A stretch of 64,000 bases of DNA from Kineothrix sp. MB12-C1 (lineage in GTDB: Bacteria; Bacillota; Clostridia; Lachnospirales; Lachnospiraceae). The notes under the pieces are model-generated. The model did not search any database. It was not told the origin of the DNA and saw nothing but the letters and a program-made list of their open reading frames with translations. The stretch is from the NCBI RefSeq assembly GCF_030863805.1, contig NZ_CP132957.1, forward strand, positions 3,596,001-3,660,000, read 5' to 3'. Positions 5,557 to 47,424 of this stretch are shown here, one piece after another (position 1 is the stretch's first letter; each line of letters opens with the position of its first letter). Made by a program: the position numbers and the translations under genes.

Positions 5557-5620
5557 GTAACTGTTCAGTACCCTCACAGCTACAAAAGCAAAGATTGCTT
5601 TGTGAAAATCCATTAAAATC
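5557..5620 (-). repeat. Composite repeat: 35-bp block plus GTAACTG palindrome, copy 2
   Basis: On the minus strand, 5620-5586 is identical over 35 bp to 47361-47395 upstream of rex. The block is followed by a GTAACTG-family hairpin whose arms (GTAACTG 5557-5563, CAGCTAC 5577-5583) pair with a wobble. Just upstream on the minus strand is GGAGGTGAT, a near-perfect ribosome binding site, before ATG 5613. A frame of 51 codons runs from there to 5458, but it crosses the terminator and the antisense of 6S RNA, so its translation is doubtful. Confidence 0.65.
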
Positions 5621-5742
5621 ACCTCCGGTGATGGGATTTTCATTTGCTATTCCGCGTTTTCTTACGGTCCGCGCAGTAAATGCGCAGACCTGCTGAATAG
5701 TTACTGCAGAATACATAATGGGTACTGGCCGGGAGATTTTTA

Positions 5743-10626: not shown

Positions 10627-10802
10627 ATGATACCTACGGATTGCTACGCACTTTGTGCTCTCGCAATCCCAACCCTAACTCAAGTTAGGGTACAACATTC
10701 GAAATCTGCCCTATTCGGGCTACTTTCTCATGTTTTGCGGGTCACAAAGTCATGTTTTCTCATGCAAGCATGAGACATATGATCTTTTGACCCTAGTATC
10801 AT
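10627..10802 (+). repeat. 176-bp repeat element with terminal inverted repeats, copy 2
   Basis: Second copy of the element at 902-1056. It starts ATGATACC (10627) and ends GTATCAT (10796-10802). Shared internal blocks include CCTACGGATTGCT, GCCCTATTCGGGCTACTTTC and the terminal hairpin, here with mismatches between arms. It is about 21 bp longer than copy 1 because of a small insertion containing the palindrome CCCTAACTCAAGTTAGGG. It separates pheS from pheT, ending 20 bp before the pheT start, so it must be transcribed with the operon. Confidence 0.78.
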
Positions 10803-10822
10803 AAAATGAAGGAGAATAGAAG

Positions 10823-30612: not shown

Positions 30613-30640
30613 TTGAATTAATTACAAGATATAGTAAAAT
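30613..30640 (+). promoter_or_regulatory. Candidate promoter of the sortase-LRR operon
   Basis: TTGAAT (30613-30618), a 16-nt spacer and TAAAAT (30635-30640). It lies before the tandem repeats, so these would be part of the srtB 5' leader of about 250 nt. Confidence 0.45.
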
Positions 30641-30682
30641 ATTAGTGTATGTTGTTTAATATAGGGTAAATATACCATCATC

Positions 30683-30852
30683 GACAAGGTATAATATTTT
30701 AACAATATTGTACTGCGCCGAGCAAAGCGAGTGTGCAAAAAACATACCGTGGCCGCTTGCGGACAAGGTATAATATTTTAACAGTATTATACTGCGCCGA
30801 GCAAAGCGAGTGTGCAAAAACATACCGTGGCCGCTTGCGGCTAAGGTATAAG
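30683..30852 (+). repeat. Two tandem 79-bp repeats plus partial third, upstream of sortase
   Basis: Units begin GACAAGGTATAATATTTT at 30683 and 30762, and a truncated third begins at 30840 (period 79 then 78 bp). Each holds an AT palindrome, the core CTGCGCCGAGC-AAA-GCGAGTGTGCA, ACATACCGTGG and CCGCTTGCGG (a 4-bp mini hairpin). A further copy is at 40392-40483 and a diverged one at 8151-8203. Each unit also contains TATAAT-like sequence. This 413-bp gap (30492-30903) has no gene; the frame across it on the minus strand is a by-product of the repeat. Confidence 0.85.
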
Positions 30853-30903
30853 ACCCAGCATTAATGGCGGCATAATTTAAAAAGATAACGAGGGAGAAAA
30901 TAG

Positions 30904-32085
30904 ATGGCAGCACAGCAGCATATAGTTGCGGGCAGGCAATTCCGTACGAAAGCAGATTATGAGGCTGCAGTAAGAGATAAGAAGAAGATCGATATTATCA
31001 AATCGAAGATAAATATGAATCAACCAAAAGAAGTAATACAGCTTTATGAACAGATGCAGCAAGGAGCCTATCACTTCGAGACGATGGTTGGTAATGATTT
31101 CGATGATGAGATATATGAATTGGTAGAATCATACAAAGAGCAGGGGAAGGGTGAAAAGGGGAGAAGGCAAAAAAATAAAACTGCCAATGAGAAAAAGAAG
31201 AGAAGTAAAAGCCATAAGGCGATAAAAGGTGGAAAGATAAGTTCCGTGGAAGATTTCGATGAAGATATGAAAAGGGAGATAGAAGCCCAGCTACGAGCCG
31301 CGGAAAGGCGCAGGAAATGGATTGTAGTCCTGTGTTCGTTATGTGCTATGGTGAGCTTCGGATACTTCTTCGTATATTATTTCTATGCCGAACGAACGAA
31401 TACGGATTATGAGAAGCTGGCCGGGCTGAAAGACAGCCAGATGCTGGCAGACGTGGGAGAAAGAATAATCGTCGTTCGCGGAGAAGAGGAAGAAATCGTA
31501 CTGCCCGATATACTGGATGAGTACAAAACTTTATATAATAAGAACAAAAAGCTAATCGGATGGCTGAAAATTGACGATACAATAATAGATTATCCAGTTA
31601 TGCAGACATCCAATAATGAATATTACCTTACATATAACTTCCATCAGGAGTATGACAAAAACGGTAGTATTTTTATGGATTTCCAGTGTAAAGCATATCC
31701 GCGTTCGCAGAATCTTATTTTATACGGACACCATATGAAGTCCGGTCAGATGTTCGGCGACCTGGAGAAGTACACTAAGAAGTCTTATTATGAATCTCAT
31801 AGTGTCATACAATTCGACACGATATATGAGAAGGGTACTTATCAAGTAATGTATGTATTTAGAGCAAAGGTTTTGAAGGAAAACGAGATTGCTTTTAAAT
31901 ATTATCAATTTATAAATGCGAACTCACCAGAGGAGTTCAATTCAAATATGAAGGAAATGGCGGCAATGTCACTGTACGATACCGGGGTGACGGCAGAATA
32001 CGGAGACGAACTGTTGACTTTATCGACCTGTGATAACTCACAGACGGACGGAAGATTCGCAGTAGTTGCCAAAAGGATTCAATAA
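30904..32085 (+). CDS. srtB: Class B sortase with long cytoplasmic N-terminal extension
   Basis: A 393-residue transpeptidase that would cleave a sorting signal and link the substrate to peptidoglycan. The catalytic triad is His276 (YGHHM), Cys376 (LSTCDN) and Arg384 (DGRFAVVAKR). It has one membrane segment (about 139-161) with the catalytic domain outside. The N-terminal ~135 residues are charged, with a Lys-rich linker (about 85-110), much longer than in typical class B sortases. ATG 30904 follows AACGAGGGAG. It lies 31 bp ahead of an LRR protein ending in a TPKTG sorting signal, which is the likely substrate. Confidence 0.92.
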   Translation: MAAQQHIVAGRQFRTKADYEAAVRDKKKIDIIKSKINMNQPKEVIQLYEQMQQGAYHFETMVGNDFDDEIYELVESYKEQGKGEKGRRQKNKTANEKKKRSKSHKAIKGGKISSVEDFDEDMKREIEAQLRAAERRRKWIVVLCSLCAMVSFGYFFVYYFYAERTNTDYEKLAGLKDSQMLADVGERIIVVRGEEEEIVLPDILDEYKTLYNKNKKLIGWLKIDDTIIDYPVMQTSNNEYYLTYNFHQEYDKNGSIFMDFQCKAYPRSQNLILYGHHMKSGQMFGDLEKYTKKSYYESHSVIQFDTIYEKGTYQVMYVFRAKVLKENEIAFKYYQFINANSPEEFNSNMKEMAAMSLYDTGVTAEYGDELLTLSTCDNSQTDGRFAVVAKRIQ

Positions 32086-32116
32086 AATTCGTTTTACAGC
32101 GGAGGAGAGTAGCAAT

Positions 32117-35100
32117 ATGGCTAAGGGTAAAGATACAAAAAAGAAAAATTGGAAGCTGCGCAGGCAACTGAGGAAGACACTTGGATGTTTGTTCATGATT
32201 TCAGCGATAATCGTGACGACGATACCGGTGCAGCCTGTAGAGGCGGCAAATAAATGGGATACAACAGTGTGGGCTACTTCACGGAGTGGCACAAGTAAAG
32301 GTGGGCTAATCCCTGATTTGGATAAAAATACTCCTATTTATCAGTCGGAAGATGGTACCTTCCAGTTTGCTTATGTGGATCAAAATGGCGATAGCAATAG
32401 TGCAAACTCTAATAAGTTTGCAGTTATTGTCGGTTATTTAAAGGAGCAGTCCTTGCCGGGTGGAAATCTAACTATCCGGGAAAAGATGGATGCTTATGTA
32501 AAATATACCGATACTCTGGGTACTACAGGAGGATATGCAGCAGCTAGTAGGAATGGAAAGCCCTTATACTATAAAAGTACCAAAATAGTATATGAAGACA
32601 AGTCGACCGGTGATATCTATCAGACAGATGGTACATGGGCCCCCGGTGTCGTAACGGTGAAAAAAACTGTATTCGATAAACTCAATCCGTGTAATCTCGA
32701 TTCTAAAGGGATATGGTGTCCGGATGGAAAGAATGATATCGATTTGTTCTATCATACTGCTTCAACTAATGGTATTCCGACAAATCCGGACGATTTAAAG
32801 GATGAAAGTAAATGGACACCTGCGTTGGGAAATGATTCGGGAAGAATTAAAGATGCCAAGGTATCTTATATTGGCAATCAATATGCAAAATATGATAGTA
32901 CTGCAAAAAATTGGAAGATTGCAGGCGATTCCACTAAACAGGAAAGTATATTTGGTGGTAGCGGAGTGGATGAAAGCGGAAAAGGAAGTGTAGCTGCAGC
33001 CAATATTATTAACTTAACGATTAGTAGCAGCCTGTTAGGAATCGGTGATTATGCCTTTTATAATTGCTTTAATATTCAGTCAGTTGTTTTTGCTGATGGT
33101 TTGAATACATTAGGAAATTGGTCGTTTGCTAATTGCGGAAACTTGACAATGGTTGAGATGCCGTTTAACGCAATGATCGATACGATAGGGGATCATGCGT
33201 TCTATAATTGCGGAAAATTGCAGGCTTTTGCGATGCCTACGGTTACAAGAGTGATAGGTGACTCTGCTTTTGAGAATTGTACAAGTTTAAGAACTATAGA
33301 TTTGATAAGGACAGAAGCAGGAGCGGATAAAAGCTCTAACTTGAAACAAATTGGCTATAAGGCCTTTAAAAACTGTTCTTCTTTGCAATATTTACGCCTT
33401 CCCAGTAGCTATGATGGTGCAGATGACAGTAATAAAAAAGTATTTCATTTATCAACTGTTCAAGGGTGCAGAAGTCTTCAATATATATCAACACAAAGTG
33501 AGGTCTTAGATTTTGTGACGGATAAATATGATTCTTCGGTAACTACTGATAACAAGGTAGATGGTACTTATGGATTCAGAGAGTTTAAGGCAGATGTTGG
33601 TGAGGCTTTTTATATCGAAGCTCCGGGATATGTAGCGGGAACAAATAATACGATAAAGACACCTGCTCATAAAACAGCAAATACCACGAAAACTGAAAAG
33701 GATACAGAAGATAAAGATATTAAAGTAAAACCGATAGCTTTTAAATATTATGGTGAAGATAAGTATGAAATTGTAGAACCTTCTACGGGAAAAAAGATTT
33801 CAGGTGGGGGGGAGCAAGCGATAGGGCTTGTTTATGCAGTGGACTCAGGCGGAAACCTCATTGTATTCCGAGTAGAGAATGAGAGTGGTGTGCCAATTTC
33901 AGGAGTAGCAGTTCCGGAACTTACTATGCCGGAACAAATTGGACCTTATGGAATTCAAACGATTGCATATGGTAGTTTTAATGATAATTGTTGGATAGAG
34001 AAAGTAACGATACCTGCATCAGTAAAAAGAATTAATAATGATGCATTTAAAGGTTCTCATAATCTAAAGCATGTTATCTTTACAAATGCAGCCAACATAG
34101 AAAGTATTGGAACGAATGCATTTGCAACACAGAAGATAAAGACTACTGCGCCTTCGCATGCGACAGGCGGTCAGGATGGTTTTGCATGTGGAGATGAGAC
34201 ATTTTTGGATGGGGCGCCTTTCCTCAGCTTCTCAGGAACTATTGAAAATGAAAAGGGAATAAATACAGAGCCTTTTAAATATGCAATGAAAGCTAGTGCA
34301 AGAATTAACGAGGGAAGACAGCCGATAACCTATATCACTTATTATAGTGGCTTCCCATCTAACTTAACGGTTCGGTATAATCATGACGAAAAAGTGCAGG
34401 CAGCGGAATTGATTGCGTTCCCTACAAAAGCAGAAGTAGAAAACGGATATGAGGTTGTTTTAGCAGGGACACCGACAGATCCAGATGACCCGACAGATCC
34501 AGATGATCCAGTAGATCCAATAACCCCTTCGACGACGGATAAATATCTATATCCTTATATTACCGATTCCATAAGTGCAGAAGCGAAGGCGGCTTTTACT
34601 AGTGGCAATCCGACGGAAAATCAGGTTAATATAAAAAACTCCGTATATCACATTGTAATACCGAAGGGTGTTACTGCGATTAAGGAAGGATTGTTCTCGG
34701 GCTTAGATACGAATGGGTATGTTTTAGGTGAAGGAAAAACACCTGAAGAATATGATAAAACTGCTGTTGATACTGAAAAATTTGCATCTCCTTCGGTGGA
34801 CATTCAAAGTATCACAGTAAAAAGTGTGAATAATATCCCTTCTTATGCCTTTGCAAGGATGCCGGAATTATTAAGAGCTTCTGTCGGTGGGGCATCGACT
34901 ATTGGTAGTTATGCATTCGACAAGAGTACGAAGTTGGCGGCAGCCGATATAGGACCGGATACTTCAGCACTCGGGTTACGTCCATTCAGCGATTGTACCG
35001 GTTTAACCGATGTGACTTTTACGGATAGTCCGTACTTTGCCTATGATAATGGTGTTATTTATGGGTTGACGAATGGTACGAAAACAAAGATTATGCAAGT

Positions 35101-37159
35101 ATTGCCGAGCAGAGGAAACTTGGTTGGATCTGGTATGGTGGGACCTGATGAATTCATAGGAATAAAAGAAATTGAAAAAGAAGCATTTATGAATTGTGAT
35201 GATATTGGTGAAGTAGATTTGAGTAAATCTTCAGTTGGTGAAATTCCTGAGAAGAGCTTTGCAGAATCCGATCGACTATATAAGGTTATTTTACCCGATA
35301 GTGCAAGAGCGATTAGAAATGGTGCATTCTGGAATACCCCTACGCTGAAGTTTGTGCAAATACCTAATAGTGTACAGCAGATAGCTCAAAACGCATTTGC
35401 TTATACACCACTTAAGGATGAACTCGGAAATTATAAAGGAGTTTATGGAGAGGACTTTGAGAAGGATCGCTCCAAGCTTGAATTCATTTGTCTTCCTGAC
35501 AGTAATGCGGCATTATATGCGGAAGATTACTCTTACATAGGTTGGACAACGAGTAATGATTTAAAAGTTAAATGGTCGGTAATGTTCTTTGATGCATCGG
35601 ATGAAAAGAATATTAAACTGATAAAGGAAGAAAGAGTTGTTCATGGAGAGAATGCTGAACTTCCTACACCACCTGATCATACCGAGGCTGGATTGATATT
35701 TGAACGTTGGTCACCGAGTGAGACTATTTTCAATCCGGTTACACAGGATAGAGAAGTCCTCGCTCTTTATAAGCCGAAGGATGTGACTACTCATACGGTA
35801 AGATTTTTCGACTATGCTAAAAAAGAGATGGCGGATTTCACGCAACAAGTCGTAGATGGCAAGGATGCAGTCCCGCCTTCTGCGGATAAGATGGTGCTAG
35901 ATGGTTTGGTATTTACCGGATGGGATAGATCATATGAAAAAATCAAGGCACCAATCGATATCTATGCTACCTATACGGCGAAGGAGGCTGATAAATTCAC
36001 AGTAACCTTCTGGACGGATACGGATATGACTAAGATGATAGGAAATCCTCAGCAAGTGGAGCCCGGAAAGAGTGCGGTAGAGCCTGCTCACCCTAAGAAG
36101 GAAGGCCATACATTTAGTGGCTGGTATCCGGCGACCTCATGGCAGAATGTAACGAAGGACTTGGATGTGGTCGCGATGTATACAGTAGGCGGTGGGGATG
36201 ACAATAACAACGGCAATAACAATGGTAACAACAATAATGGTAATAATAACGGTAACAATGGTGGAAATAATAACAATGGCAGCGACAGCAACAAGGATTC
36301 CGTATCTTCCAATAGTACAAAATATAAAGTTACAGTAAGCGGAGGAAGCGGAAGCGGAGATTATACGCCGGGTACGATTGTGAATATTAATGCGTATGCG
36401 ACCGCGGATGGTAAAGTATTCGATAAGTGGACCAGTTCCTCTGCAGGAGTTGGGTTCGTGAATGCCAGCGCTATCTCGACGACCTTTACGATGCCATCGA
36501 ATAATGTAGATATTACGGCGAACTTAAAGGATGGCGGAGGTTCCTCCACGGTTACAGGTAATTCGAGGAATCCGCTTCGCAACTCGACAACGACAGTGGA
36601 TATTACCAAGGGTGGTATCTCCAATTCGGACATAGCGTCAGCGAATGTAAACGGTTCTTCCGATGATTATGTGATTAAGATTACCGAAGATGCACAGGCT
36701 ACAGCGGCTGTGATTGCAGCTCTGGAAGCGAAATATGGGGATTTGAGCAATATCGCCTATCTGCCGATGGATATCAGTCTGTATGACTCCACAGGACAGA
36801 CGAAGATAACGGATGTAAGTGGAATTAGCGTGGATATTACGTTGCCTCTGCCGGATGAACTCATTCAATATGCGGGAAATAATAGAGCGGCAAGTGTGCT
36901 TAACGGGGAATTAGAAGAGTTAGGTGCTAAATTTACAACCATCGATGGTATTCCATGTATTCAGTTTACGGCAACTCATTTCTCTCCGTATACAATCTAT
37001 GTAGATAAAGGGAATCTTACGGAGGGCTTGCTGGATGCAACACCTAAGACCGGCGATCCCATACATCCGAAGTGGTTCCTGGCAATGGGACTTGCATGTA
37101 TCTCTATCATTTTATTTGCGAAAAAAGATAAAGGAATGCCAAGAGTAAAATCGGCTTAA
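32117..37159 (+). CDS. Large BspA-type leucine-rich-repeat surface protein with TPKTG sorting signal
   Basis: A 1680-residue secreted protein. A signal peptide (about residues 1-42, cleavage after VEA) is followed by LRR_5/BspA-type repeats in two blocks (about 290-500 and 600-1140; units such as IGDYAFYNCFNIQSVVF). A PTDPDDPTDPDDP linker lies between, then InlB-type B repeats (about 1150-1360, e.g. GHTFSGWYP), an Asn/Gly-rich spacer (about 1362-1395), another beta repeat, and a C-terminal domain shared with the next gene. The end is TPKTG (about residue 1644), a hydrophobic segment and KKDKG, a sortase signal. ATG 32117 follows GGAGGAGAG. A host-ligand or mucin/adhesion role is possible but unproven. 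Confidence 0.92.
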   Translation: MAKGKDTKKKNWKLRRQLRKTLGCLFMISAIIVTTIPVQPVEAANKWDTTVWATSRSGTSKGGLIPDLDKNTPIYQSEDGTFQFAYVDQNGDSNSANSNKFAVIVGYLKEQSLPGGNLTIREKMDAYVKYTDTLGTTGGYAAASRNGKPLYYKSTKIVYEDKSTGDIYQTDGTWAPGVVTVKKTVFDKLNPCNLDSKGIWCPDGKNDIDLFYHTASTNGIPTNPDDLKDESKWTPALGNDSGRIKDAKVSYIGNQYAKYDSTAKNWKIAGDSTKQESIFGGSGVDESGKGSVAAANIINLTISSSLLGIGDYAFYNCFNIQSVVFADGLNTLGNWSFANCGNLTMVEMPFNAMIDTIGDHAFYNCGKLQAFAMPTVTRVIGDSAFENCTSLRTIDLIRTEAGADKSSNLKQIGYKAFKNCSSLQYLRLPSSYDGADDSNKKVFHLSTVQGCRSLQYISTQSEVLDFVTDKYDSSVTTDNKVDGTYGFREFKADVGEAFYIEAPGYVAGTNNTIKTPAHKTANTTKTEKDTEDKDIKVKPIAFKYYGEDKYEIVEPSTGKKISGGGEQAIGLVYAVDSGGNLIVFRVENESGVPISGVAVPELTMPEQIGPYGIQTIAYGSFNDNCWIEKVTIPASVKRINNDAFKGSHNLKHVIFTNAANIESIGTNAFATQKIKTTAPSHATGGQDGFACGDETFLDGAPFLSFSGTIENEKGINTEPFKYAMKASARINEGRQPITYITYYSGFPSNLTVRYNHDEKVQAAELIAFPTKAEVENGYEVVLAGTPTDPDDPTDPDDPVDPITPSTTDKYLYPYITDSISAEAKAAFTSGNPTENQVNIKNSVYHIVIPKGVTAIKEGLFSGLDTNGYVLGEGKTPEEYDKTAVDTEKFASPSVDIQSITVKSVNNIPSYAFARMPELLRASVGGASTIGSYAFDKSTKLAAADIGPDTSALGLRPFSDCTGLTDVTFTDSPYFAYDNGVIYGLTNGTKTKIMQVLPSRGNLVGSGMVGPDEFIGIKEIEKEAFMNCDDIGEVDLSKSSVGEIPEKSFAESDRLYKVILPDSARAIRNGAFWNTPTLKFVQIPNSVQQIAQNAFAYTPLKDELGNYKGVYGEDFEKDRSKLEFICLPDSNAALYAEDYSYIGWTTSNDLKVKWSVMFFDASDEKNIKLIKEERVVHGENAELPTPPDHTEAGLIFERWSPSETIFNPVTQDREVLALYKPKDVTTHTVRFFDYAKKEMADFTQQVVDGKDAVPPSADKMVLDGLVFTGWDRSYEKIKAPIDIYATYTAKEADKFTVTFWTDTDMTKMIGNPQQVEPGKSAVEPAHPKKEGHTFSGWYPATSWQNVTKDLDVVAMYTVGGGDDNNNGNNNGNNNNGNNNGNNGGNNNNGSDSNKDSVSSNSTKYKVTVSGGSGSGDYTPGTIVNINAYATADGKVFDKWTSSSAGVGFVNASAISTTFTMPSNNVDITANLKDGGGSSTVTGNSRNPLRNSTTTVDITKGGISNSDIASANVNGSSDDYVIKITEDAQATAAVIAALEAKYGDLSNIAYLPMDISLYDSTGQTKITDVSGISVDITLPLPDELIQYAGNNRAASVLNGELEELGAKFTTIDGIPCIQFTATHFSPYTIYVDKGNLTEGLLDATPKTGDPIHPKWFLAMGLACISIILFAKKDKGMPRVKSA

Positions 37160-37174
37160 GCTTAGGGGGAGTCT

Positions 37175-39766
37175 ATGGATAATAGGAAAATTATGATTCT
37201 TGCGGGAATGCTGCTATGTATTGCGGCTGCAGCATTCCAGCTTTCGCCGTCGCAGGTGAAAGCGGAATCGGCGTCAGCCTCCGATTTTCAGATGAAGGGC
37301 GATACATTGGTAAAATATACGGGCACAGCTAGCGCTGTGTCCATTCCGGTATTTGTGAAGAATATCGGAAAAGAAGCATTTCAGGGACATACGGAACTTA
37401 TTAAGGTGGAGATACCGGGATATGTGGAAAGTATTGGTGCTAATGCATTCGAAGGTTGTACTTCTCTTGAGAAGATAGCAATTCCCGATACAGTGACGGA
37501 GCTTGGTGCGGGCGTATTCAGCAGTTGCAGTTCACTGAAAACAGTAACTCTGGGAAAGAAGCTTTCCAAGCTTGGAGATGGTGCTTTTGCGGACTGTACC
37601 TCTCTCGGTCAATTGAAAGTAAGTGCGGATAATACAGATTTTTCTTATGAATCCGGAGCAATTTATAACAAAGATAAGACAATCTTATATGGCCTTCTGC
37701 CGGGATACAGCCAGGAAGTATATAAGATGCCTGCCACAGTAAAGACAATAAGAAATAACGCTTTTTGGGGATGTGAGAATCTGACAAAGGTAGAAATAGG
37801 AAGCAATGTGAAAGCAATACCTGATTATGCATTTGCTAATTGTAGAAACTTAGAGAAGGTTAGGTTTTCCTATTCCGTATCCGGTATTGGTTTAAAAGCA
37901 TTTATGGATTGTATCAATTTGGGAGAGATTGAAATACCCGAATCAGTATCCAAGATACATGAAACGGCCTTTGATGGCTGCCCGAATCTTGTGATTTTGG
38001 CAAAGGAAGGTTCTTATGCGGCGAAGTATGAGGCGTCCCGTGATAAATCCCAGGTGTCCAGAAATGAATATGAGGATGTATTACATGATTCCGGAGAAGA
38101 GAGCATCGGACAAGGTGATGAGGATAGTTCAGAAGATTCTGCGAACTCAGCGAATACAGGTTCTCTTCTTGGACAAAGTAAGATTGTGGGTGGTAATGCA
38201 ATAGTATTTATAGACAATAACCGTTCCAAAGTGCTATCGGGAAATGAGCAGGGAGAAAGCGAAACGCAAAGCAGTACGAATTCCCCTGAGATTATAGGAG
38301 GGGAGACGGCGAGTAATAGCATTGCTAAATATACGATAGTTAATGATAAAATTGCAGATCAGGCGTATTATGGCAATGCAGGCTTGACATCATATGACAT
38401 ACCTCAGACTGTGAAAGCAATTGGCAGCTTTTCCTTTGCCCGCTCAGGATTGACTTCTATCGAGGTACCGGACGGAGTGGAATCAATCGGTTATGGTGCA
38501 TTTTATCATTGCGATAATCTGGCATCTATTACGATTCCTGATTCAGTGACAACGATAGAACCTTCTGCATTGAATAAGACGAAATGGATGGAAGAGCGTC
38601 TGACAGATAAGAAGAATCCGTTTGTCATTGTGGGAGATGGTATTCTGATTGCTTATACGGGCAGTTTGGAGAGTGTTGCAATACCGGAAGGCGTGAAGCA
38701 GATCGGTGCGGAAGCATTTATGGATAATCGAAAGATAACTGCGGTTACACTTCCCAGTACTTGTAAAGTGATCGGTGAAGATGCTTTTGCCGGATGCAGC
38801 AATCTAGTGAGTGTGGCTGGCGGCAGTTATGTGGAAGAAATTAGGGATAGAGCCTTTGTCGGATGTCCAATCAGTACGATTAAAATTCCTGCATCTGTGA
38901 AGTCGATAGGTTTACGGGCTTATGACATTACAGGGACCGGTAAAGACGATGGAAGCAAGATCGCTGTTTTTCTGGGAGGAAGCCTTCCTAAGATATCCTA
39001 TGAGAAAACGGCTACCCGATTGCCGAATGAAATACAAAGAGATGCGGTATTTAAAGATGTAAGAATCGCTATTGTCAGTGATGATATTACACCTGAAGAT
39101 GTGGTGGATACGGTATTAGACTATGATAAAGGTGGATTCCGCGGATTTGTCTGTACGGTGGAACAGACGGCGGAACAGGATACTCAGGGAAGACTTCGTA
39201 TCAAGTTCTGTATTATGAAGGAAGAAGATGTGGAAGTGACAACGGTTCCGAGACATGTGACAGTGTACGGTAAGACCTATAAGATATCTAATCCCAATGA
39301 AGCGGTAGTATATGCTTCCAACGAGGAAGATGCCGGCGAAGAGAAAGATATAACAGTAGAGATAAATAGTCAGACCTTACCAACAGTTCCTTCGGTTCAA
39401 GCGAAACTATCCGGAGCAGAAAATAACTATATTTTACAAATAAATGATAACCCTGATGCAGGTAAGGATATTGCTGCCGCGTATAAAAAAGCAGTGGCCG
39501 GCGGACGGATAGCGAGCATGCAAGCTTATGATATTGCGTTATATGATGGGAAAACTATGACTCCGATCAGCAAGGCGGGTAAGCAACAAATGACCATAAC
39601 GATTCCGAAGCCGAATGGCGTCATAGCCGAGGGACTTAAGGTGCTTTGTCTGGATGAAGATGGGCAATTGGAAAAAGTGAATGCACGGTTAATTGTAGTA
39701 AATGGAATTACATGCGTCCAGTTCGATGCAGAACGTTTTACTACTTATGTATTTTATAATAATTAA
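37175..39766 (+). CDS. Secreted BspA-type leucine-rich-repeat protein without sorting signal
   Basis: An 863-residue protein with a signal peptide (about 1-31, cleavage after VKA). BspA-type LRR units form two blocks (about residues 45-290 and 400-610; e.g. IGANAFEGCTSLEKIAIP), split by a Ser/Glu/Asn-rich low-complexity region (about 300-375). The last ~130 residues resemble the C-terminal domain of the upstream LRR protein (MQAYDIALYD and ITCVQFDAERFTTYVFY against the matching stretches). No LPXTG-like motif or membrane tail is present, so it is probably secreted or non-covalently bound. ATG 37175, AGGGGGAG upstream, 15 bp after the first LRR gene, so one operon with srtB. Confidence 0.9.
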   Translation: MDNRKIMILAGMLLCIAAAAFQLSPSQVKAESASASDFQMKGDTLVKYTGTASAVSIPVFVKNIGKEAFQGHTELIKVEIPGYVESIGANAFEGCTSLEKIAIPDTVTELGAGVFSSCSSLKTVTLGKKLSKLGDGAFADCTSLGQLKVSADNTDFSYESGAIYNKDKTILYGLLPGYSQEVYKMPATVKTIRNNAFWGCENLTKVEIGSNVKAIPDYAFANCRNLEKVRFSYSVSGIGLKAFMDCINLGEIEIPESVSKIHETAFDGCPNLVILAKEGSYAAKYEASRDKSQVSRNEYEDVLHDSGEESIGQGDEDSSEDSANSANTGSLLGQSKIVGGNAIVFIDNNRSKVLSGNEQGESETQSSTNSPEIIGGETASNSIAKYTIVNDKIADQAYYGNAGLTSYDIPQTVKAIGSFSFARSGLTSIEVPDGVESIGYGAFYHCDNLASITIPDSVTTIEPSALNKTKWMEERLTDKKNPFVIVGDGILIAYTGSLESVAIPEGVKQIGAEAFMDNRKITAVTLPSTCKVIGEDAFAGCSNLVSVAGGSYVEEIRDRAFVGCPISTIKIPASVKSIGLRAYDITGTGKDDGSKIAVFLGGSLPKISYEKTATRLPNEIQRDAVFKDVRIAIVSDDITPEDVVDTVLDYDKGGFRGFVCTVEQTAEQDTQGRLRIKFCIMKEEDVEVTTVPRHVTVYGKTYKISNPNEAVVYASNEEDAGEEKDITVEINSQTLPTVPSVQAKLSGAENNYILQINDNPDAGKDIAAAYKKAVAGGRIASMQAYDIALYDGKTMTPISKAGKQQMTITIPKPNGVIAEGLKVLCLDEDGQLEKVNARLIVVNGITCVQFDAERFTTYVFYNN

Positions 39767-39834
39767 AGATGATTATGAAAGAACCACCCGGTGGTATAAT
39801 AATATTATTATTTATTGGAAAAGAGGGGATGGTT

Positions 39835-40401
39835 ATGAAGAGTAAAGAGGATAAGATACGGCCGGAAGACCGCGAAGAACTGTTTAAAGTATGGAAATCC
39901 CGATTTGAGAAAAATAAGCACCGCCATAGGGACATATTATGGGAAGATGTGCAAAAGAAATTGGAAAACAACGAAGGAAAGCTATGGTCGCTGGAACAAA
40001 TGGAGGTGACCGGAGGTGAACCCGACGTTGTTGGATACGATGAGAAAACAGATGAGTATATCTTCTATGATTGTGCGGCAGAAAGCCCTAAGGAACGCAG
40101 AAGTCTTTGTTATGACCGCAGAGCATTGGACTCCCGCAAACAGGCGAAGCCGGCAAGCAGCGTTATGGATATGGCGCAGACCATGGGCATTGAACTGCTA
40201 ACGGAAGAAGAATACCGGGAACTGCAAAAGCTTGGTAAATTCGATCAAAAGACATCCAGCTGGGTAAAGACGCCGGATAATATTCGAGAACTGGGCGGTG
40301 CGATTTTCTGTGATTATCGCTATGGTACTGTCTTCGTTTATCATAACGGAGCTGAAAGCTACTACTCATCTAGAGGATTTCGAGGCGTATTGAAAGTATA
40401 A
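39835..40401 (+). CDS. DUF4256 family protein
   Basis: A 188-residue cytosolic protein matching the DUF4256 family. I recognise the conserved run FEKNKHRHRDILWEDVQKKL, the GGEPDVVGYDEKTDEYIFYD segment, SPKERRSLCYDR, MGIELLTEEEYR and YHNGAESYYSSRGFRG. The family has no established function. ATG 39835 follows AGAGGGG at good spacing; codons upstream in the frame (from 39769) are unlike the family. Upstream is ACCACC-C-GGTGGT (39783-39795) and TATAAT, a possible separate promoter. The stop TAA (40399-40401) lies in a repeat. Confidence 0.85.
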   Translation: MKSKEDKIRPEDREELFKVWKSRFEKNKHRHRDILWEDVQKKLENNEGKLWSLEQMEVTGGEPDVVGYDEKTDEYIFYDCAAESPKERRSLCYDRRALDSRKQAKPASSVMDMAQTMGIELLTEEEYRELQKLGKFDQKTSSWVKTPDNIRELGGAIFCDYRYGTVFVYHNGAESYYSSRGFRGVLKV

Positions 40402-40483
40402 TATTTTAATAATATATACTGCGCCGAGCAAAGCGAGTGTGCAAAAAGCATACCGCAGCCGCTTGCGGCTAAGGTATAAAAGA
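40392..40483 (+). repeat. 79-bp family repeat, single dispersed copy
   Basis: Copy of the unit at 30683, with the same order of blocks: GTATAATATTTT, CTGCGCCGAGC, GCGAGTGTGCA, CATACCG, CCGCTTGCGG. It overlaps the last codons and TAA stop of the DUF4256 gene. Confidence 0.8.
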
Positions 40484-40556: not shown

Positions 40557-41483
40557 ATGTTTCGGGTAAGACAACAGGTAGGTTGTACGGATGAATTAGT
40601 CGCCTCCTGCAACTGCAGAAATAGTGAAGATAATATCAGGGTGGCGGTACTTGATACAGGAATTGGGAATCATCCCGATTTTGAAGGTAGAGTGGACGCC
40701 TTTTATGATTTTCTGCATGGGGGAAGGAACGCCTACGATGATAGCGGCCATGGAACCCATGTGATTGGATGTATCGGAGGAAGCGGGAAGGCTTCCGGTG
40801 GGATGTACAAGGGAATTGCTCCCCATTGCCGCCTGGTAGTAGGAAAAGTTCTGGATGAGAACGGTGATGGCAATATAGATCATATGAAACAGGGGATTGA
40901 GTGGGTTCTGGATATTAAGGATAGATATAAGATAAGAGTGCTGAATATCTCCATTGGTATCGGATATATAGACAATAAAAATAGGATGGAGGAATTGGTG
41001 CGCGCAGTGGATGAAGCGTGGGACAGCGGCATTGTAGTGGTGTGTGCTGCGGGCAATATGGGGCCTAAGCCTATGACGATATCCCCGCTTGGGGCAAGTA
41101 AGAAGGTCATTACAGTAGGATGTCATGAAGGTGGTTATTTTGGAAAAAGGAGTTCTCTGTGCGAAGAATATTCAGGGAGAGGACCGTCGCCTTATGCGGT
41201 GAAGAAACCGGATGTGGTAGCTCCCGGAACAGATATTATTTCCTGTAATGTAGCTTGTCGCCAGTCATTTCGCGGTTACCGGAATGCTTATACGAAGAAG
41301 AGCGGTACATCGATGGCGACGCCGATTGTTTCGGGTGCAGTAGCCTTGCTCTTACAAAAGTATCCGTATCTTACGAATGAACAGGTAAAACGGAAACTCA
41401 GTTATAGTGCAACGGACTTGCAGGAGCCGTGGACGAAGCAAGGATGGGGCATGATAAATGTAAGAAGAATGCTTGCTCCCTGA
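40557..41483 (+). CDS. Subtilisin-family (S8) serine protease, probably intracellular
   Basis: A 308-residue subtilase with the full catalytic set: Asp33 (VLDTGIG), His65 (SGHGTHV), oxyanion Asn167 (AAGNMG) and Ser252 (GTSMATP). No signal peptide and no long propeptide (about 26 residues ahead of the domain), which resembles intracellular serine proteases. Several Cys residues (10, 18, 20, 72, 91) are unusual for the group. ATG 40557 is preceded by GGGAG embedded in a hairpin. A role in protein turnover or regulated proteolysis is inference. It is followed by the promoter of the next operon. Confidence 0.93.
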   Translation: MFRVRQQVGCTDELVASCNCRNSEDNIRVAVLDTGIGNHPDFEGRVDAFYDFLHGGRNAYDDSGHGTHVIGCIGGSGKASGGMYKGIAPHCRLVVGKVLDENGDGNIDHMKQGIEWVLDIKDRYKIRVLNISIGIGYIDNKNRMEELVRAVDEAWDSGIVVVCAAGNMGPKPMTISPLGASKKVITVGCHEGGYFGKRSSLCEEYSGRGPSPYAVKKPDVVAPGTDIISCNVACRQSFRGYRNAYTKKSGTSMATPIVSGAVALLLQKYPYLTNEQVKRKLSYSATDLQEPWTKQGWGMINVRRMLAP

Positions 41484-47345: not shown

Positions 47346-47360
47346 AGGATAATATAAGAT

Positions 47361-47424
47361 GATTTTAATGGATTTTCACAAAGCAATCTTTGCTTCTGTA
47401 ACAGTGAGGATGCCAAACTGTTAT
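47361..47424 (+). repeat. Composite repeat in the rex leader (35-bp block plus GTAACTG-family hairpin, copy 4)
   Basis: 47361-47395 is identical to the reverse complement of 5586-5620. The hairpin that follows has arms GTAACAG (47398-47404) and CTGTTAT (47418-47424), a compensatory change relative to GTAACTG/CAGTTAC of other copies. Confidence 0.75.

Follow-up and report, generated by a model that had tools for sequence, protein, structure and literature searches.

A probable dedicated class B sortase locus with paired leucine-rich-repeat surface proteins in Kineothrix and other Lachnospiraceae

Introduction

Class B sortase genes can stand beside the gene of their own dedicated substrate, as in the Isd-type srtB loci, typified by sortase B of S. 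aureus, which recognises NPQTN. Among surface proteins, the BspA-type leucine-rich-repeat (LRR) adhesins, such as BspA and the streptococcal HupY/LrrG, carry LRR_5 repeats and are secreted, and HupY/LrrG is anchored by a sortase. In C. difficile, cleavage of SPKTG and PPKTG between T and G by SrtB has been demonstrated experimentally, and the enzyme attaches the protein CD2831 to diaminopimelic acid (PMC4155245, PMC4591827). The locus considered here lies in a 64,000-nucleotide stretch (the window; positions 3,596,001-3,660,000) of the complete 3.94-Mb genome of Kineothrix sp. MB12-C1, whose closest named relative is Kineothrix alysoides KNHs209. It consists of a class B sortase gene (srtB), a gene for a very large LRR protein whose sorting signal is TPKTG (the giant) and a gene for a second LRR protein (the partner). 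The gene order, motifs, domain content, co-occurrence and evolutionary loss observed here point to a surface-display locus that is found across the Lachnospiraceae and uses a class B sortase of its own to present a pair of variable-tip LRR proteins, a reading to which we give a probability of about 0.75. The locus appears to be an undescribed, Lachnospiraceae-wide conserved form of the dedicated class B sortase locus, as no description of it was found in the literature searched, which excluded subscription papers.

The sortase, the giant and the sorting signal

30904 to 32085, forward strand: srtB, class B sortase of 393 residues with catalytic H276, C376 and R384 (TIGR03064, PF04203, Foldseek)
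32117 to 37159, forward strand: the giant, a BspA-type LRR surface protein of 1680 residues with a signal peptide at residues 1-43 (LRR_5, Flg_new, Flg_new_2; almost every locus has the ortholog next to srtB)
37040 to 37156, forward strand: sorting signal TPKTGDPIHPKWFLAMGLACISIILFAKKDKGMPRVKSA of the giant (A2 alignment)
37175 to 39766, forward strand: the partner, a second LRR protein of 863 residues, secreted and anchorless, usually anchored outside Kineothrix

A preliminary description of this DNA, made from the letters alone, had claimed this three-gene layout, a class B sortase, and a TPKTG motif with a hydrophobic stretch and a lysine tail on a 1680-residue LRR/InlB-repeat protein, and all of these hold. 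The open reading frames and coordinates are as claimed, with gaps of 31 bp between srtB and the giant and 15 bp between the giant and the partner. A ribosome-binding site precedes srtB, and promoter and terminator scans gave nothing above shuffle level. The three genes are probably transcribed as one unit, because the intergenic gaps are short.

Family model, fold and catalytic residues agree in making srtB a class B sortase, for which transpeptidase activity is predicted. The protein passes TIGR03064 narrowly (154.0 bits, cutoff 153.75) and matches PF04203 with an E value of 1.1e-12, and its catalytic H276, C376 (within TLSTC) and R384 are invariant among 43 relatives. The best Foldseek matches of the SrtB model are solved SrtB structures, including that of B. 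anthracis (E 2.4e-18) and the S. aureus SrtB-substrate complex (E 3.3e-18). A role in pilus assembly was considered and rejected, since the locus has no class C sortase and the matches of known fold are all of class B.

The giant carries LRR_5 (PF13306) in five stretches (E 1.4e-66; 222.6 bits against a gathering threshold of 27.7), together with the InlB-type repeats Flg_new and Flg_new_2, and ends in ...DATPKTGDPIHPKWFLAMGLACISIILFAKKDKGMPRVKSA. It thus combines what is expected of a sortase-anchored protein, namely a signal peptide, PxTG, a hydrophobic stretch and a basic C-terminal tail. The resemblance of TPKTG to the (S/P)PXTG signals of C. difficile SrtB, which had also been pointed out, stands, and cleavage has been shown for the latter (PMC4155245, PMC4591827). 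A 34-position profile of the signal (A2) has PxTG and PKWFL as invariant elements of its alignment, giving the extended consensus PxTGD-(x)-I-x-PKWFL. Searched against the complete genome, this profile finds the giant as its only match (4.8e-24). Six DNA matches to P[KNDE]TGD occur in the same genome, of which that of the giant alone is a sorting signal, other wall-sorting signals having been sought by pattern only. LRR_5 is likewise confined to the giant and the partner in this genome.

The two ends of the giant have evolved differently. Up to residue 1363, in the blocks made up of LRRs, other repeats and linkers, its identity to relatives outside the genus is mostly 12-39%; it then climbs to 50%, 64% and 75% across the C-terminal domain and the signal. 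Because identity is low in the LRR part and high at the C-terminal domain and signal, the giant fits the picture of a variable binding tip, presumably exposed, that is carried by a conserved base near the wall.

Conservation across Lachnospiraceae

Whether the three genes stay together in other genomes was the refutation test set in the preliminary description, and the order proved to be kept. Among 15 congeners, 14 have a full-length SrtB ortholog and 14 the order srtB-giant-partner (a contig end cuts the locus in one more genome); a few other genera also have the ortholog, and several the gene order. Nearly all of the fetched ortholog loci contain srtB, a TPKTG giant and a partner. When 397 Lachnospiraceae genomes were surveyed with A2, 73 matched, about 55 of them strongly, with one or two proteins each. 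The strong matches are nearly always to a protein of 1400-2000 residues, often with a protein of ~950 residues about 3 kb further on. Forty loci were picked through the signal, without regard to the sortase. In 31 of them srtB adjoins the giant or lies close by, in three more the contig ends, and in one (L120, genome G261) part of a sortase is visible where the contig stops. The sortase is still held by 11 of 11 searched genomes in which the locus is unlinked or contig-cut. A further 80 loci, found by a sortase scan of named genomes, have the same order where the contig reaches far enough, except that genes are inserted or rearranged in a few. Over all 116 distinct loci, srtB adjoins the giant in 96 and lies near it in 11 (107 together), a partner is present in 106, and the median gaps are 26.5 and 11 bp. 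Among 391 genomes sampled at the level of the class, A2 gave three matches, all of them in Lachnospiraceae. The extended signal thus seems nearly always confined to this locus within a genome, and none was seen outside the Lachnospiraceae.

The flanks are conserved as well, with leuS upstream and an S8 protease, a leuA-like gene, a GntR gene and icd downstream, and this marks it as a core locus of old standing that has been passed on vertically. This raises an alternative, in which the order is kept purely by vertical inheritance of the neighbourhood and SrtB, a class B sortase of general function, lies there by chance. The recurrence of leuS, two small genes, the S8 protease, the leuA-like gene, the GntR gene and icd around the locus in many genomes is what such an explanation would predict, but it does not account for the short gaps within the unit, the retention of the sortase where the locus is unlinked, the limitation of the signal to the giant and the partner, or the lack of a second P[KNDE]TGD sorting-signal protein among the pattern matches in the Kineothrix genome, and we consider it very improbable. 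The conserved order and the restriction of the signal to these proteins instead bear out the earlier suggestion of a dedicated sortase-substrate unit.

In 12 loci (L191, L193, L198, L201, L203, L209, L213, L220, L221, L224, L225 and L229), an extra protein of 1360-1710 residues is encoded just upstream of srtB. Most of these proteins have an N-terminus typical of secretion; the C-terminus is in every case an MBG-like repeat and lacks a sorting signal.

The partner and the paired signals

The partner has a signal peptide and a strong LRR_5 match (E 1.3e-90; 300.3 bits, gathering threshold 27.7), and its C-terminus in the window, which ends ...RFTTYVFYNN, has neither PxTG nor a membrane segment. 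The claim that the third protein is anchorless is therefore correct for the window and for Kineothrix, where none of 14 partners has an anchor, but it fails as a property of the system, since 67 partners outside Kineothrix carry PxTG, a membrane stretch and a basic tail, and PKWFL recurs in most of these (DDTPDTGDPIHPKWFLALGLFAGSVALFFYKGK in L177 is an example). Another 11 non-Kineothrix partners are without PxTG, several of them keeping just the membrane segment; this class is approximate because some of its members (e.g. L121, L125, L138) look truncated. Seven further non-Kineothrix partners are truncated or split. In the sortase tree, the Kineothrix loci form one clade (96*) within a larger clade that is rich in anchored relatives (97*). 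Because a single clade is nested among anchored relatives, the simplest reading is that the secreted partner derives from an anchor loss that would have happened once, on the Kineothrix branch.

Where both proteins have a signal, the two differ at position x. Among the 65 loci with both signals, the giant has K in 60 (T or Q in the others), and the partner has D, N or E in 65 of 65. We know of no published rule for such a split between paired sorting signals. The split could mean that two sortases are at work, with the linked SrtB taking the K-type signal of the giant and another sortase the D/N-type signal of the partner, so that Kineothrix would have lost only the second branch. Several genomes hold more than one class B sortase, which together with the complete separation of K from D/N/E agrees with this. 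Both signals, however, share the rest of the motif (DxIHPKWFL), the genes are adjacent, and sortase motifs usually tolerate variation at x. A second sortase is thus an unlikely explanation.

The N-terminal domain of the sortase

30904 to 31158, forward strand: cytoplasmic three-helix domain of SrtB, residues 1-85 (predicted local distance difference test score, pLDDT, 93-97 over residues 11-80)
31159 to 31236, forward strand: disordered Lys-rich linker of SrtB, residues 86-111 (pLDDT <50)

The long charged cytoplasmic extension of SrtB, for which a regulatory or scaffold role had been suggested, is N-terminal, occupying residues 1-135 ahead of the membrane helix. It is not disordered throughout. 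In an AlphaFold2 model based on a 43-row alignment, residues 7-85 form a confident three-helix domain (pLDDT 93-97 in most blocks), and a long helix at residues 120-175 contains the membrane segment and is followed by the class B catalytic domain. Pfam scans of the N-domain gave noise only; the domain was nevertheless found in 94 of 107 linked sortases, and a profile built for it (A6) also matches separate membrane proteins of ~190-225 residues. One of these is encoded in the same genome (G000:C1:3808682, E 2e-5), where it adjoins an OmpR-type response regulator, as it does in 10 loci read elsewhere; in most of these loci the start of a kinase gene follows. There is thus an unnamed cytoplasmic domain common to the sortase and a two-component locus. 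Because the domain is shared with two-component-linked membrane proteins, the suggested regulatory or scaffold role gains support, and the domain may be a docking or regulatory module.

The N-domain forms the N-terminus of the membrane proteins of ~200 residues at L059 (7674-8231), L267-L273 and L275-L277.

Proposed function

For the locus as a whole, we infer that the signal is cleaved, that the protein is joined to the wall and serves in adhesion, and that the cytoplasmic N-domain exerts control, in the following form. Sec would export both LRR proteins, which would be retained by their hydrophobic C-termini. SrtB, a membrane protein with its catalytic domain on the outer side, would recognise PxTGD-(x)-I-x-PKWFL, cut TPKTG between T and G (peptide DATPKTGDPIHPK) and, by analogy with C. 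difficile SrtB, join the giant to the peptide stem of peptidoglycan. The giant would then project its fast-evolving LRR tip from the conserved wall-proximal base. The partner would be a paralogous co-substrate, bearing in most lineages the same signal with D/N replacing K; on the Kineothrix branch, it would have lost the signal and be secreted, perhaps held by the giant. The LRR tips may bind other cells, the host surface or a polymer, the system probably having an adhesive role, and the cytoplasmic N-domain may control SrtB.

Several points weigh against this proposal. TPKTG has T where the C. difficile SrtB substrates have S or P, and the tail of the giant scores 14.3 bits with the LPXTG anchor model TIGR01167, below its cutoff of 15.9 (the partner of L050, from another genus, scores 21.8 bits). 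Five of the 40 signal-picked loci have a giant with an unlinked sortase, and simple vertical inheritance accounts for part of the conserved order, as the chromosomal position is itself conserved. Adhesion, finally, is argued from analogy with other BspA-LRR proteins.

The shared C-terminal domain and possible self-cleavage

36593 to 37012, forward strand: C-domain of the giant, residues about 1493-1632, its best-conserved part
36977 to 36985, forward strand: near-invariant tripeptide H1621-F1622-S1623 of the giant (HFS in 105 of 111 giants)
39353 to 39757, forward strand: C-domain of the partner, residues about 727-861 (AlphaFold2 model m050ef7b522d5)

The giant and the partner share a C-terminal domain, as had been noticed at the outset, with 26% identity over 136 residues (E 4e-12). 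Of the alignment columns that giants and partners have in common, the H, F and S of the tripeptide belong to the six that are best conserved. HFS is also present in 62 of 66 anchored partners, and its H in 66 of 66. The partner in the window has R-F-T instead (residues 854-856; 39734-39742), and the 14 unanchored Kineothrix partners are divided into eight with HFS, four with RFT (including that in the window) and two with GSG. The C-domain model (residues 623-863 of the window partner, AlphaFold2, pLDDT 88) matches the ankyrin ZU5 domain (4d8o) in Foldseek (probability 1.00, E 1.6e-3, 20% identity), with the GAIN domains of BAI3, CELSR1 and CD97, and also dextranase sandwiches, among the further matches. 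VIA Z scores are 6.5 for ZU5, 4.9-5.7 for GAIN and 7.2 for dextranase C-terminal sandwiches. Because the dextranase sandwiches score as high, the ZU5/GAIN-like fold of the modelled C-domain is suggestive only.

PIDD and Nup98 cleave themselves at HFS, between F and S. The H1621-F1622-S1623 of the giant fits the H-[FL]-[ST] cleavage tripeptide of the ZU5/GAIN autopeptidase superfamily, which the partner in the window, with its RFT, has lost. The C-domain might accordingly be a ZU5/GAIN-like self-cleaving module that cuts itself between F and S beside the anchor, so that the ectodomain is then held by one β-strand and could be released by force or ligand; where the Kineothrix partners have no anchor, the site would be useless and would decay. 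The near-invariance of HFS in giants and anchored partners is consistent with this notion, as are the replacement of HFS in 6 of the 14 unanchored partners and the structural resemblance to ankyrin ZU5 and GAIN. The tripeptide precedes the last strand, and it is precisely between F and S that the predicted strands are interrupted, geometry here being judged from predicted secondary structure alone. In one of 40 C-domain members, the HFS end aligns with the end of the Nup98 autopeptidase profile PF04096 (E 0.0079, below cutoff; C-terminal positions 122-148 of 148). Self-processing ZU5 domains have already been proposed in bacterial surface proteins (PMC3482391). Conversely, the Pfam ZU5, GAIN and GPS profiles do not match the C-domain, the Nup98 match is sub-cutoff and confined to that one member, and a search of Protein Data Bank sequences with the C-domain profile found no solved relative. 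The fold may be a common one, given the scores of the unrelated dextranase sandwiches, and HFS may be kept for packing. Self-cleavage is thus a possible but doubtful property of this domain.

A combined arrangement can be imagined, in which the dedicated sortase anchors both LRR proteins by oppositely charged signals (K versus D/N), each protein has a ZU5/GAIN-like domain that self-cleaves between F and S next to the anchor and stays non-covalently attached until pulled or bound, and the N-domain, shared with a two-component-linked membrane protein, ties the sortase to envelope signalling. We regard this as quite improbable; if true, such a releasable pair would be a bacterial counterpart of the GAIN arrangement of adhesion G-protein-coupled receptors.

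Neighbouring genes, repeats and other sortases

40557 to 41483, forward strand: S8 subtilase without a signal peptide, a frequent downstream neighbour (PF00082 E 6.1e-51)

The S8 subtilase scores as mycosin-like (TIGR03921, 142.8 of 278.75 bits). As a component of the system it was rejected; it lies on the opposite strand in some loci (L125, L139) and has no signal peptide, and is probably a bystander. Between it and the partner is a DUF4256 gene (39769-40401, E 4.2e-90), with no match at the equivalent place in the congener loci examined. A REP-like intergenic repeat of 79 bp, tandem in places, flanks the locus at 30711-30852 and 40417-40479. The unit is scattered across the chromosome with 98 matches, and therefore does not mark the borders of an island. 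Other long repeats in the window have 87% identity, namely 945-1064 with 10691-10810 and, inverted, 5558-5624 with 47357-47423.

The same genome has a second class B sortase directly after a SpaA/DUF7601 protein of 1822 residues (L056, 2135-8414), which ends in AKTGD, a hydrophobic stretch and a basic tail, suggesting another dedicated pair. A sortase-B-like protein is also encoded beside a LytR-CpsA-Psr-type gene (L058, 8971-9810, at about 3.396 Mb of G000; L040, 1-552); it keeps the His and lacks the cysteine of TLSTC, and is probably catalytically dead.

Comparison with known systems

The locus would add to what is known of surface display in a major gut family, being present in roughly one-seventh of the sampled Lachnospiraceae genomes (about 55 of 397 at the strict threshold). 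In PxTGD-x-I-x-PKWFL it has a new, extended signal that is served by a sortase of its own; it also offers a rule for paired substrates (K versus D/N) and, in the anchor loss of one genus, a natural experiment. The N-domain that the sortase shares with a two-component-linked protein adds to the interest of the system.

With C. difficile SrtB, the Kineothrix enzyme shares the class B fold, P-x-T-G-D signals in which K is frequent at x, and the expected linkage to diaminopimelic acid. The C. difficile enzyme, however, is a stand-alone housekeeping sortase with scattered substrates and a short N-terminus, whereas that of Kineothrix has a dedicated pair and an extra N-domain, and its signals differ from those of C. 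difficile in the invariant PKWFL within the membrane segment. The Isd-type srtB loci are alike in having the sortase next to a dedicated substrate and differ in that NEAT domains and iron genes are absent here, the signal is TPKTG and not NPQTN, and the substrates are LRR proteins. LRR_5 repeats and secretion are shared with the BspA-type adhesins, and so, with HupY/LrrG, is the presumed anchoring by a sortase; the giant and the partner nevertheless reach just 69.6 and 133.6 of 1250 bits with the HupY/LrrG model NF047961, far below its cutoff, and have another C-domain and signal, as paired proteins with a sortase of their own. The autopeptidases of the ZU5 superfamily (PIDD, the FIIND of NLRP1/CARD8, Nup98, GPS/GAIN) resemble the C-domain in suggestive structural matches and in a β-sandwich, predicted for the C-domain, that ends with H-F-S, and differ in that the C-domain has no ZU5/GAIN sequence-profile match and that its self-cleavage is hypothetical.

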